Source: a virus
DNA: 64,000 nucleotides
IMG/VR virus record: IMGVR_UViG_3300037488_003551
Coordinates: 62,001-126,000 of that record
Reading direction: 5' to 3' (one strand)
In this document: in pieces, positions 3,527-59,582 of the stretch
Numbering within the stretch: position 1 is the first letter of the stretch
How the letters are laid out: each line of letters begins with the position of its first letter
Notes under the pieces: model-generated
What the model was told of the DNA's origin: nothing
Databases searched by the model: none
The model's input: the letters and a program-made list of their open reading frames with translations, nothing else
Program-made: the position numbers and the translations under genes

Positions 3527-3541
3527 CTTTTCTAGCCTTTT

Positions 3542-3596
3542 GCTCCACGCACACCATTTAGTAGTTGCGCCTTTCACCTAAAGGTGGGCGTGGAGC
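3542..3596 (+). other. Long stem with internal hairpin after the 3344 gene
   Basis: GCTCCACGC (3542-3550) pairs perfectly with GCGTGGAGC (3588-3596). Inside is a second hairpin, CACC-TAAA-GGTG (3575-3586). The following sequence is pyrimidine rich but not a clean T-tract, so it may be a weak terminator or an RNA processing element. Confidence 0.5.
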
Positions 3597-3647
3597 CTCT
3601 TCCCTTTTCTAAGCCTATCTTCTAGTCTCGCATACTAAGGACTATCT

Positions 3648-4349
3648 ATGGAAAAACACAATGAACCAATTGAAGAGCAGTTGAAACGTCTTTCGAAGCT
3701 CAACCCGGATACGGGTTGTTTCGTCTGGATTGGGAGTAGAAGTGGGAGGTATGGAGCGGTACGAATACCGCCAAACAGACAGGAAAAAGCGCATATAGTC
3801 GCATGGGAATGTATCTACGGTCCGCGCCCAGAAGGATTTATAATACAGCATACGTGCCGGAACCCACTTTGCGTCAACATCCGCCATCTGGTTCTATTTA
3901 AGAGTTCAGGGGTAGATTCTAGAGACGATATTAAACGGCAATTAGACCGCCTAAAAAGAAGAATAATTATTAATCCTAAAACAGGTTGTTGGGAATGGCA
4001 AGGTTCTACAGCTAAAGGATACGGACGATTACGCGTCGGGAAGCGTTACGTTCTTGCGCATCGCCTAATGTGGGAGTGCGTATACGGAGAGACTAATAAC
4101 CTTCACATTCTTCATAAGTGTGACAATCGAAGTTGCATATGCCCGAGTCATCTATTCTTAGGTACAAATGCCGATAATATGCGAGATAAAGTACTCAAAG
4201 ATCGAGCAGGTATTAAATTAAATATAAAAGAAGTTAAAGATATCCGTACGAGCAAGCTCGCGCCCAAAGACTTAGCAAAAAAATACGGAGTAAGACTTGA
4301 TACTATCTATCGAATCTTGAACCGCGAAACCTGGAAACACATCGAATAA
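3648..4349 (+). CDS. HNH endonuclease with two HNH domains and C-terminal helix-turn-helix
   Basis: 233 residues with AAGGA before the ATG. Two related HNH_3-like units are visible: residues ~15-85 (GCFVWIG, AHIVAWECIYG, IQHTCRNPLCVNIRHL) and ~110-175 (GCWEWQG, AHRLMWECVYG, LHKCDNRSCICPSHL). Each has the Cys pair and His residues of the zinc-stabilised nuclease finger. The C-terminal ~35 residues (DLAKKYGVRLDTIYRIL) look like a DNA-binding helix-turn-helix. Proteins of this kind are free-standing or intron-borne homing endonucleases that nick or cut specific DNA. The gene is AT-richer than its neighbours, which suits a mobile gene, and is followed directly by highly structured non-coding DNA. 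Confidence 0.92.
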   Translation: MEKHNEPIEEQLKRLSKLNPDTGCFVWIGSRSGRYGAVRIPPNRQEKAHIVAWECIYGPRPEGFIIQHTCRNPLCVNIRHLVLFKSSGVDSRDDIKRQLDRLKRRIIINPKTGCWEWQGSTAKGYGRLRVGKRYVLAHRLMWECVYGETNNLHILHKCDNRSCICPSHLFLGTNADNMRDKVLKDRAGIKLNIKEVKDIRTSKLAPKDLAKKYGVRLDTIYRILNRETWKHIE

Positions 4350-4363
4350 CTTTTTAGAGTACA

Positions 4364-4651
4364 GTCCCCACTTGCGGAGAATACCGCCGCGAGTACGGGG
4401 ACACGAAGGGCTTCAAGCCCTTTTTTGATCTCAAAAACCAGGGCTATTTTTGGTAAAAGAATATGGAGAAGAACTTCGGTTCTTCACCCACCGGGTAGCA
4501 CGTGAAAACGTGACTATCCGCTCCCCCTCTTCAGAGGGGGTAAAAACCACTAGGCTCTGTTAGACCCTCCCACTGGGGTCAAAGGTTCAGTGGGCGGCAA
4601 TTGAGGCATGCCGTTAGCCTCCACCGTTCGGGGAGTTAGTCTTCATCTCCC
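4364..4651 (+). ncRNA. Structured RNA candidate with pseudoknots
   Basis: A chain of consecutive helices: GTCCCC 4364-4369 with GGGGAC 4397-4402, extended by ACTTGCGG 4370-4377 with CCGCGAGT 4387-4394; a terminator-like hairpin with six T at 4406-4426; GAAGAAC-TTCG-GTTCTTC at 4468-4485; an 11-bp stem with a GAAA tetraloop and one bulged A at 4492-4520; CCCCCTC-TTCA-GAGGGGG at 4523-4540. Then comes an H-type pseudoknot: GACCC 4563-4567 with GGGTC 4576-4580, whose loop CCCACTG 4569-4575 pairs with CAGTGGG 4588-4594. A possible second pseudoknot is CGGCA 4595-4599 with TGCCG 4609-4613, loop GAGGC with GCCTC 4617-4621. Last is GGGAG 4631-4635 with CTCCC 4647-4651. No gene with a proper start lies here. 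Class unknown. Confidence 0.6.
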
Positions 4652-4671
4652 AATAAAAAAAGGACATCCTC

Positions 4672-4767
4672 TATCCCTGCGTTGGCTCGATGGGATACGA
4701 GAGGAACTAGAAGGGCTGCAAAGCCTTTCTTTTGATCCCACAAAATCAGGGCCGTTTTTGGTAGAAG
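4672..4767 (+). repeat. Second, diverged copy of the 4364-4460 RNA element
   Basis: TATCCC (4672-4677) pairs with GGGATA (4692-4697), matching in place the GTCCCC/GGGGAC stem of the first copy with compensatory changes. The hairpin AAGGGCT-AGCCTTT (4711-4728) corresponds to 4406-4422. It is followed by a conserved T-rich stretch, TTTTGATC, then CAGGGC and TTTTTGGTA, as at 4423-4455. Primary sequence identity is highest over 4709-4767. It ends about 50 bases before the ATG of the next gene. Confidence 0.55.
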
Positions 4768-4814
4768 TCATTGTCGTCTATTTCGAACACAAACCAACCA
4801 AGGAGACTAAGCAC

Positions 4815-5051
4815 ATGGACCAATCAGACAAAGACCAGCCCTTAAATATTAAAATACCAATATCCCTAATACATAAGTTGGAACAGAAAAAAGTCGATCT
4901 GCGTGTGCATACAAACAAAAATATTTCTCGAAAGGAACTCGTTATAGTTCTTTTAGAACATGGACTTGAGCATTACGAACTCACGGATATTGCCCACGAT
5001 GTTAGCCTTCTCCGCTTACTAGAGAAGATGGAGGATGAATCCAATGTCTAA
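4815..5051 (+). CDS. Ribbon-helix-helix-like small protein
   Basis: 78 residues starting MDQSDKDQPLNIKIP. AAGGAG lies nine bases upstream; a longer frame from 4608 is rejected because it runs through the repeated RNA element. The segment PLNIKIPISLIHKLEQ followed by a second helix (ISRKELVIVLLEHGLEHYE) has the strand-helix-helix pattern of Arc/CopG DNA-binding proteins, which act as dimeric repressors. This assignment is by pattern only. It overlaps the next gene. Confidence 0.8.
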   Translation: MDQSDKDQPLNIKIPISLIHKLEQKKVDLRVHTNKNISRKELVIVLLEHGLEHYELTDIAHDVSLLRLLEKMEDESNV

Positions 5052-24366: not shown

Positions 24367-24783
24367 ACCATACAAAAGGAGGGTATGGGAGGGTTCGCAG
24401 CGCTTACGGGAAAGGGGAGATGCTGCTTGAGAATATTCGGCCTAAAAGACAAATGAAAATCAATACTTAAGTATAATTTCCAGATATAAGACTTTTTCCA
24501 AGATACATAAACAACGTCAATTAGGATTTACCATATGAAAATTATCTGTTGTTAATTCTGGATTGTCTAACCCAACTTAAAAGGGCTATGCGACCCCCAT
24601 CCCCGACTCAAAAGGGTGGTGCTTGTACTTACTCCTGAGAAACAGGGAGGAGCACGCAGCATCTTTTGTGTTTAGAAAGTAGTGGATATCTTTAAATTTT
24701 TTAGTTGAAAAATGAGTATCAAATTCTCATCCGTTAAAAAATAAAAAAATATAAAGTCGGCGTAAAAATAGCTTAAATGGGTG

Positions 24784-24850
24784 TCTCTTCTCTTCTCTTC
24801 TTTTCTTTCTAACTCTTTCTAATGATTAAAGAATAAGAGAAGAGAAGAGA
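24784..24850 (+). repeat. Pyrimidine/purine inverted repeat
   Basis: TCTCTTCTCTTCTCTT (24784-24799) is matched downstream by AAGAGAAGAGAAGAGA (about 24835-24850), giving a ~16-bp stem around a T-rich loop. The strictly pyrimidine then purine arms could form a hairpin in RNA or a triplex-type structure in DNA. No T-tract follows. Confidence 0.6.
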
Positions 24851-25279
24851 AGGGGACGGGTGGTGGACACAACATATCCACGAACTCCGGATGCTTTTGG
24901 ATGTGTCATTTACGCGGACGTGAGATTCAGGGGTACTTCGTAAAGCGACGTAGGCTTAATACGTGGGGGAAGAGTGTATCAGGTGTTTATACTCATTTAT
25001 AGAGAATCTGGAAGAGATGGGTGAGTTCGGCGAAAACTGCGTTCGCTCGTGTGTAAATGAGCAGTCCGAAGGCAGAAAGTTCCTGCGGAGACTATTCTTT
25101 AGCGATATATTTTGCGCGGAATCCTTGATATTTAAGGCTTTTATCCTCCGGCATACGCTTTATTATTTCTTTGTAGCACTTTTTTCCGTAAACATTCCTG
25201 TTTTTATTTCTCTAGCTTTTTAAATCTAGGACTATACTTATTTTATTTCCTTTCATTTGTATTCGCATACTTAGGTCTC

Positions 25280-57423: not shown

Positions 57424-57470
57424 GTGCACCTGCTTTTGTGATACAGAGAGTCTAGCATATCTCTAGGACC

Positions 57471-57655
57471 AAAAAAAGAGCCCTCGCTCTTCTTCCACCC
57501 TGAGAGTTATTCGGCCAGAGAGCTCGGGTCGAGAAGCCGCACGGCGGCGAGGACCGAGCTATCGGTTGAACACTCTAAACACTATTGAACGTTTTAATAC
57601 TGCTGTAACAGCAGCTTGCGTTTTAAAAACGCTGCGTGGAAGAAGAGGAGGGCAC
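57471..57655 (-). ncRNA. Structured small RNA candidate
   Basis: Read on the minus strand, CTCTTCTTCCAC (57647-57636) pairs perfectly with GTGGAAGAAGAG (57498-57487), extended past one bulge by CCCTC/GAGGG, a 17-bp closing stem. A run of seven T follows at once (57477-57471). Enclosed helices: CTGCTG/CAGCAG (57600-57614), GCGTTT/AAACGC (57618-57632), and AGCTCGG/CCGAGCT (57521-57560) capped by GCC/GGC. No reading frame with a start lies here. The unit sits between the dNMP kinase and transglycosylase genes. Class unknown. Confidence 0.6.
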
Positions 57656-57663
57656 AAGGACTT

Positions 57664-58239
57664 TTAACCCCCGTAATCGGTAGTGGAAAGAGCTTCTACT
57701 TCTTTCTCTATTTTTTTCCATTGCCGCATACGGTAGGCGATTTTACTTCGAGTAGTTTTAGATGTGGATACGCAGAAACCTCGTGTCGCGTAAGCGGTGA
57801 GAGACTTTTCCCATGATTTACAAACTGGTAAATAGTGAGCAAGCCATTTTGCACCGCATTCGAGTTGTCCGGGGACGGTTGCTAGGTCGCAGTTTCGAGC
57901 GGCAATTCCGTGTACTTGTGTGAGGCCCACTTCTCCTAGTTTTCCGAGAGCTGTCATCTCGAAGGTGCTCTCGTTATAGACGATTGTCGTCAGAAGGAGA
58001 GGTGGAATCCCATGCGTTTGAGAAGCCTCGACAATGGCTTTTGCCATATCGATGCGAACCTCGGAGTCTCGTGACAGGATCTTTCCGGGTTCTGCGCGCA
58101 TGAAATACTTGATTGCAAGGTCCACGGAGCGTACTTCTTCGTCGAAGCTTTTAGGGAGTTGCTCTGCGGGCTCTGCGGCGGTGGCATCCCTGCTCGATAA
58201 AAGCAGCATCACCATTAGCGTCGTTTTAGCCAGGCGCAT
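57664..58239 (-). CDS. Secreted lytic transglycosylase
   Basis: 191 residues from the ATG at 58239, which gives a clean signal peptide (MRLAKTTLMVMLLLSSRDATA); AAAGGA lies about 10 bases upstream. The SLT domain follows: VYNESTFEMTALGKLGEVG with E90 as probable catalytic acid, GLTQVHG, then CGAKWLAHYL and TAYATRG. These enzymes cleave the MurNAc-GlcNAc bond of peptidoglycan. Four Cys in the mature part fit a periplasmic protein. It may serve as phage endolysin exported by Sec, or as a virion muralytic enzyme. Confidence 0.88.
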   Translation of the reverse strand: MRLAKTTLMVMLLLSSRDATAAEPAEQLPKSFDEEVRSVDLAIKYFMRAEPGKILSRDSEVRIDMAKAIVEASQTHGIPPLLLTTIVYNESTFEMTALGKLGEVGLTQVHGIAARNCDLATVPGQLECGAKWLAHYLPVCKSWEKSLTAYATRGFCVSTSKTTRSKIAYRMRQWKKIEKEVEALSTTDYGG

Positions 58240-58379: not shown

Positions 58380-59582
58380 TTACCGTAGCCCCTTCGTGTT
58401 TGTTTCCTGCTTCCTCGTTTTAAGTTTCGTTTTAGTCGGTTTCCGAATTGAAGACCGAATAACACCAGAGCTCGAAACTCCACAGGCTGTTACCGCTGAA
58501 CTAGCGGCCAAATTTTGCAGATTTAGGGCTGCGTTTATATCTCGGTGTGCTGCATATGCACATGTAGGACAAATAAATATCTTATCTCGTTTAAATTCTT
58601 CATGTATTTCCCCACAGTTGGAACAAGTTTTTGATGAGGGATAGAATCTATTAGCAATTACAATTGTAGTCCCCGTTAAGGCAGCTTTATATGTTAATTG
58701 ACGTCTAAATTCATAGAATCCTAAGGAAGAAATTGCGGGTGCGAAGGACCTATTAGCCAGCATTCCACGTACATTTAAGTCTTCGATACCTAAAATTGCG
58801 TAGGTAGATGTAAGATTTTTAGTTAGCTTGTGCAGACAGTCGGTACGTAGACAAAAGATTCTATAATGCTGGTTTCTTAGTTTGTTCAGAGCCTTTAGTT
58901 TATTATTAGAGCCCTTTTTCTTCCGCGAGAATTGACGATTTAAACGAGCTAGTTTTTTGAGTTCTAGAGATAAGCTAGGAGGTTTGAGTATTATTTCGCC
59001 TGTTGAAATCGTTGCAAGATGCGTAATACCTAAATCTATACCCGCTATTCCGTGGTTATTGTGAGTAGCTCGGTTATAGGACTCAGGTAATTTTACTAGT
59101 ATGCTCACAAACCAAAATTCAGCCTTTCTAGAAATGGTTGCGGAGAGCATCTTTCCGTTAAAGCGTAAGGCTTCGAACATTCGTATTTTCCCTATTTTAG
59201 GTAATTTTATGTAATTATTTTCAACTTTAAAAGTACCGGGTCCAGTATCGGCTCGGAATGAGTCGTGTACGCCCTTGCGTTTAAATCTAGGATACTGACT
59301 TTGCTTCTTAAAAAAGCGGTTAAAAGCTTGTCCTAGATTTAATATTGCATATTGAGGAGCAGCTTTTGTTACGTTCTTCATCCAAGGAAATTGTATTTTT
59401 TTAATTTTGTTTAATTCTCGCAGTAGTCCCAGCGCTGTTGTGCTGAGACCTTTTGCATGATTATTGTTCCATTCCTCCAGTCCCCAATTATAAGCTTTGC
59501 GGGCTACCCCGCAGGCTTGTATCATGTATGTTTTTTGAATGTTATTAGGATTGAGGCGTATCTTATGGGCTAAGATTGGCAT
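58380..59582 (-). mobile_element. tnpB: IS200/IS605-type TnpB (RNA-guided nuclease) without TnpA
   Basis: 400 residues, full length for TnpB. N-terminal HTH/wedge part, then RuvC motifs with catalytic D183 (GIDLGI), E267 (GIEDLNV) and D348 (HRDINAA). The zinc finger has C320, C323, C338 and C341. TnpB is an RNA-guided DNA endonuclease encoded by IS200/605 transposons; its guide RNA overlaps the 3' end of the gene. The last ~40 codons (KTKLKTRKQETN) keep the composition usual for guide-RNA-encoding ends. The gene starts 22 bases after the preceding gene and no TnpA is present, so it is a stand-alone or domesticated copy. Confidence 0.9.

Follow-up and report, generated by a model that had tools for sequence, protein, structure and literature searches.

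A terminator-promoter-like cassette and a probable small non-coding RNA gene with predicted abutting pseudoknots in a phage encoding a multisubunit RNA polymerase

T4-like phages reportedly carry promoter-terminator cassettes called PeSL, described by Comeau, Arbiol and Krisch in 2014. These are composite intergenic units of a terminator hairpin and a promoter that recur between the genes of large phages, and in this they resemble the locus described here. The present units differ in that they use another motif and occur in another phage group, which has its own multisubunit polymerase, and in that one of them precedes a stretch devoid of ORFs. Among phage-encoded RNAs, those of the GOLLD and ROOL classes are several hundred nucleotides long (many GOLLD RNAs exceed 800), conserved, often located near tRNAs and represented by Rfam models (PMC12286853). 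The RNA proposed here is likewise phage-encoded, noncoding and densely structured with pseudoknots, but it is an orphan without an Rfam match. The initial annotation had likened it to the large phage non-coding RNAs; at about 270 nt, the candidate is not of that large, ornate type. The RNA antitoxin ToxI consists of 3 to 5.6 repeats (PMC8860590); tandem H-type pseudoknots upstream of a terminator and a gene are common to both loci, but the RNA considered here lacks sequence repeats and is not accompanied by a toxin gene. Finally, the giant phage AR9 has multisubunit RNA polymerases and uses the promoters AAATATATATTAT-N6-G (early) and AACA-N6-TA/G (late) (PMC5312081). The phage under study shares with AR9 a multisubunit RNA polymerase of its own and repeated intergenic motifs, here putative promoters, but its motif, TATTTTnGGTAcAAGaATATG, is neither the early nor the late motif of AR9.

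A single structured RNA had been proposed at positions 4364-4651 of the window analyzed here, whose 64,000 nucleotides are bases 62001-126000 in a phage record of 172,892 bases. Comparison with a related phage contig, G004, split this interval into parts. It is, on this comparison, a chimaera that joins the terminator of an HNH endonuclease gene to a promoter-like motif and to the 5′ portion of a candidate RNA (Table 1). We read it as a terminator-promoter cassette, in which comparison with relatives supports both the HNH terminator and the family of the motif, followed by a small non-coding RNA gene, and give this reading a probability of about 0.6; the RNA itself is, with equal confidence, probably a stand-alone gene beside the HNH gene. 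The right-hand two thirds are thus best read as the structured RNA that had been proposed, whereas the left third closes the HNH gene at its 3′ end; the likely RNA runs on to about position 4733. The activity and start site of the promoter, the second terminator and the independence of the RNA are what we infer from sequence.

Table 1 Features of the locus and of a second RNA family (window coordinates unless a contig is named)
Feature	Position	Strand	Basis
HNH (homing-type) endonuclease gene, 233 aa, upstream neighbor	3648-4349	+	Pfam HNH_3, E 2e-24; PHROG endonuclease, E 2e-52
3′-UTR hairpin, HNH gene	4364-4402	+	kept in G004
Intrinsic terminator of the HNH gene (GAAGGGCTTCAAGCCCTTTTTT)	4405-4426	+	terminator scan; G004 comparison
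Strong first copy of the promoter-like motif; transcript probably starts at its 3′ end	4427-4470	+	matrix score; relatives
Candidate stand-alone non-coding RNA, about 270 nt	4466-4733	+	no plausible ORF; z -5.14
5′-terminal hairpin, UUCG loop	4468-4485	+	folding
12-bp hairpin, GAAA tetraloop, one bulge	4492-4520	+	folding
CCCCCTC/GAGGGGG hairpin	4523-4540	+	folding
H-type pseudoknot 1 (5 bp + 7 bp)	4563-4594	+	rank 4, both strands of window
H-type pseudoknot 2 (5 bp + 5 bp), abutting pseudoknot 1	4595-4621	+	rank 15, both strands of window
GGGAG/CTCCC hairpin, large loop	4631-4651	+	folding
Nested hairpin TCCTCT-ATCCC/GGGAT-AGAGGA, just before terminator 2	4667-4705	+	folding
Probable intrinsic terminator of the RNA: 9-bp stem, GCAA loop, TTTCTTTT	4709-4733	+	folding
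Promoter-like motif, weak second copy	4735-4778	+	26-nt direct repeat of copy 1, 85%
Next gene, 78 aa, weakly similar to phage transcriptional repressor	4815-5051	+	phrog_4738, E 3e-4
Second structured RNA family, window copy	57430-57660	-	3-4 copies in all
Second family, same genome	L034:11325-11517	+	
Second family, G004	L090:17559-17748	+	
Second family, G004	L090:17759-17953	+	

The multisubunit RNA polymerase is encoded at L032:6941-15587 (+) by genes for a 1792-aa protein with beta and beta′ domains and a 622-aa beta′ part, between which lies a LigD primase-polymerase-like gene. The genome record (G000) appears to be circularly complete, since the near-identical contig L093 (G001) spans the junction of its two ends, base 172892 and base 1, about 190 bases being shared. 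Searches of described phages found only distant relatives. Related contigs were collected through the DNA polymerase (nine, G001-G009) and through the promoter-like motif (two, G010 and G011). The closest relatives, G001 and G005, are represented by contigs that do not span this locus, and the most useful one was G004 (100 kb).

In G004, the HNH gene has an orthologue that lies, as here, downstream of a gene for a 60-aa protein, and nucleotide identity at the locus (73%) reaches into the 3′ hairpin. Two one-sided, pair-keeping changes distinguish the hairpins of the two phages and double compensatory changes in three pairs distinguish their terminator stems, with no broken pair in either. By this comparison, the helices between 4364 and 4426 are part of the HNH transcript and not of the downstream RNA. 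Beyond them the region and the next gene differ: G004 has another gene within about 100 bases of the HNH terminator, and the RNA is absent at that place. Because G004 retains the HNH gene and its hairpins but not what follows, the endonuclease does not appear to have a functional tie to the RNA, although a homing-type endonuclease gene does adjoin it, as initially annotated. Relatives of the HNH protein were only distant (30 loci), and those of the 60-aa protein were found only in G004. A 17-bp inverted repeat (88% complementary) is present between these two genes at 3540-3597, with a comparable one in G004.

Genes for HNH endonucleases are often housed in introns. That frequency, together with the GAAA tetraloop, would fit an intron or ribozyme tied to the HNH gene, of which the RNA would be a part. 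We regard this as the least probable of all the readings, as Rfam gave no intron or ribozyme match, no split exon was recognized, the HNH gene has its own terminator, and in G004 the HNH gene stands without the RNA. A group I intron split by the HNH gene was rejected for want of an Rfam match and of exons.

The HNH terminator is followed immediately by the promoter-like motif, which carries a TCAaa/TCAtat element upstream. The motif was discovered through a 26-nt direct repeat (4434-4459 and 4742-4767) and recurs in G000, G001, G002, G004, G007, G010, and G011. Many sites come after a terminator, and most are followed by an ORF that has a short leader with a Shine-Dalgarno sequence; several sites in G004 show the same order of terminator and motif as positions 4405-4470 here. 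A terminator directly before a recurring motif, the arrangement expected of a PeSL-like terminator-promoter cassette, was thus found. From its position before genes, we infer that the motif acts as a promoter. A 44-position matrix was built from 13 training sites, leaving out both copies at this locus. Since these sites had been selected visually by someone already aware of the motif, a fair comparison uses the window copy, which was not in the training set and scores 40.6, and the leave-one-out scores, which range from 11 to 44. Scores above 20 were reached at sixteen sites in about 0.8 Mb, whereas one Markov-resampled set of the same size had none above 16. For the second copy, the full matrix score was only 4.2 and that of the core 15.4. 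The strong copy is conserved as sequence, not as structure. An early reading of the 26-nt repeat, two RNA copies in tandem that share a conserved RNA motif, was dropped because the copies in relatives precede genes, often follow terminators and have no conserved motif fold. A pattern search for the motif in genome contigs gave one match, which resembled coding sequence.

Two other observations concern sites of this motif. At about L032:6930-6850 (-), it precedes a gene for a tiny hydrophobic peptide (15-19 aa, e.g., MVIQPAMILAALLIAVLRR), which has its own terminator as well as a strong Shine-Dalgarno sequence and is kept across the phage family, with orthologous sites in L093, L101, L096, L111, L112, and L110. 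An odd tRNA-like sequence at about 766-853 of the window, upstream of another motif copy, was not called by ARAGORN; the program calls its G004 counterpart (L088:11454-11526) tRNA-Ala(TGC).

The extent of the candidate RNA was set by the flanking motif and terminator. Between 4463 and 4740, no ORF with a plausible start was found, only short ones without a well-placed Shine-Dalgarno sequence, and the RNA part gave neither an Rfam intron nor a credible ORF, either of which would have spoken against a new RNA. The helices named in the initial annotation are present, and folding confirmed both the UUCG and the GAAA tetraloop. The first H-type pseudoknot was also recovered as described (S1 GACCC/GGGTC, L1 U, S2 CCCACTG/CAGTGGG, L3 7 nt), and the second, until then only suspected, combines CGGCA/TGCCG with GAGGC/GCCTC. 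The probable terminator of the RNA resembles terminators of related phages in the group and was not picked up by a simple terminator scan. Hairpins comparable to the one at the 5′ end occur in mRNA leaders behind other motif copies, three of which show both-sided changes in 9 of 16 pairs in at least one sequence. The pseudoknot pair is without parallel in the leaders behind the motif.

The interval 4364-4651 has a minimum free energy of -123.5 kcal/mol (z -6.46), and in the shuffling control proposed with the annotation none of 200 dinucleotide shuffles folded as well. The core (4466-4651) alone gave a z of only -3.6, so that the extreme value of the interval stems partly from the terminator hairpins at its left end; the density of helices does exceed chance, as had been claimed, but by an inflated measure. 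The reverse complement of the core had a z of -3.4, and 21 of 688 equal windows lay below the core by a noisy 16-shuffle estimate. A strict scan for H-type pseudoknots on both strands of the window (128 kb) predicts about 0.03 sites as strong as these two per 273 nt, and here two stand back to back, while equally strong single pseudoknots occur elsewhere in the window, including in coding DNA.

These figures bear on the view that the region is a functionless terminator stack with decayed sequence between two genes, its pseudoknots having arisen by chance in a G+C-rich spacer. The modest z of the core, the single pseudoknots in coding DNA, the lack of a homologue among relatives and the absence of the RNA from this place in G004 would all agree with it, and the nearly equal folding of the reverse strand of the core argues against our preferred explanation. 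However, the z of the whole RNA, the abutment of two strong pseudoknots and a strong motif copy immediately upstream, in a densely coded genome, weigh against it; we consider this view improbable and place it second among the rivals.

Searches for homologues of the RNA gave none. Rfam, including GOLLD, ROOL, HEARO, and group I introns, yielded no match at the gathering score, and at loose thresholds its best match reached 20.1 bits against a cut-off of 50, in agreement with the initial statement that no class was recognized. BLAST of the RNA against phages and plasmids, and against the related phage contigs, found no homologue. A single-sequence covariance model (R1), run on 43 sequence pieces and 34 viral records, found only the RNA itself, with all other hits at E values of 0.76 and above, and the pattern AAANCAGGGCNNTTTTTGG had 15 apparently chance matches in viral contigs. 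As the searches found no homologue from which covariation could be counted, the pseudoknots are predictions from thermodynamics and geometry only. A structured leader after tRNA-Ala in G004 (L088:11596-11866) was rejected as a relative, having no homology by eye or BLAST, and tmRNA, with its tRNA-like domain and tag ORF, was rejected since ARAGORN found none.

Tandem pseudoknots, a terminator and a small gene form the order of ToxI-ToxN, which would suggest a type III toxin-antitoxin locus with the pseudoknots as RNA antitoxin for a downstream toxin. Yet tandem sequence repeats were looked for in the RNA and none were found, the neighboring products match no toxin, and the 78-aa product is weakly repressor-like. 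Without repeats and an adjacent endoribonuclease toxin this reading is largely refuted and seems very improbable.

The main rival is a long, structured 5′ leader: transcripts from about 4466 would normally continue into the 78-aa repressor-like gene, with the pseudoknots and terminator as a cis-regulatory attenuator. That gene starts just 80 bases past the terminator, the second promoter copy is weak, and one motif copy in G004 precedes a structured leader of ~270 nt and then a gene. Nevertheless, a terminator and the second motif copy separate the RNA from the gene, and an alternative antiterminator fold was not identified; we judge a leader unlikely, though less so than the other alternatives. 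The 78-aa gene has a Shine-Dalgarno sequence, AAGGAG, ahead of its ATG. No relatives of its protein were found, a match in G007 being no homologue as it sits within a 351-aa ORF, and the product had no match among toxin or defense families.

If the RNA is a stand-alone gene, as we prefer, RNA polymerase finishing the HNH gene would stop at the first terminator, and a new transcript would begin near 4466 from the putative promoter. The multisubunit polymerase genes of the phage agree with this reading. At its 5′ end the transcript would carry a stable hairpin, a trait of several mRNAs behind the motif; rod-like hairpins and the two abutting pseudoknots would follow, and it would end at the second terminator. 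Its stable ends and few long single-stranded stretches lead us to expect a long-lived RNA that would act in trans. Tentatively, we conjecture that it might serve as a decoy or scaffold, offering its two pseudoknots to a partner that could be a protein or another RNA. Since the second motif copy is weak, transcription may also continue into the gene at 4815. More doubtful is the idea of a new class of compact non-coding RNAs in phages, with this RNA as its first known member, made abundantly from a phage-specific promoter and binding a host or phage protein through its tandem pseudoknots.

A z-score scan of the whole window flagged a second region, 57430-57670 on the minus strand (z -5.39). Copies L034:11325-11517 and L090:17759-17953 have 49 common pairs, 11 of them with double compensatory changes and none broken, and a covariance model built from these two found the untrained window copy with an E value of 1.3e-9. 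The fourth, more divergent copy adjoins L090:17759-17953 in G004. The fold comprises a long closing stem, a hairpin GCAGC..GC, a second hairpin (either CUGAAG-AUA-CUUCAG or CUGCUG-UUA-CAGCAG), a third arm that is long and bears CUCCUCG on two loop strands, and a tail AACUCUCAGG, the window copy ending in U7. For this copy, no Rfam match was found at E values up to 5. As judged from its covariation, this is a separate structured-RNA family of the phage group, and arguably a more valuable lead than the RNA at 4466-4733.

The same scan gave its lowest folding z in the longest stretch of the window without a called gene (24367-24962, 596 nt), which contains a long TCTCTTCTCTTC... inverted repeat near 24783-24853. 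Elsewhere, the window encodes a 400-aa IS605 OrfB/TnpB-like protein with a Cas12f-like TNB domain (58380-59582, -), and the genome encodes a 380-aa reverse transcriptase (L037:6968-8110, -) whose closest PADLOC models are defense-type and retron-outgroup reverse transcriptases.

A dense run of helices can thus be a chimaera of regulatory signals, whose parts the comparison with one relative separates. The locus names one concrete candidate orphan non-coding RNA gene for testing. For this phage group, which encodes a multisubunit RNA polymerase and has been little described, it also yields a promoter-like motif that can be put to use.
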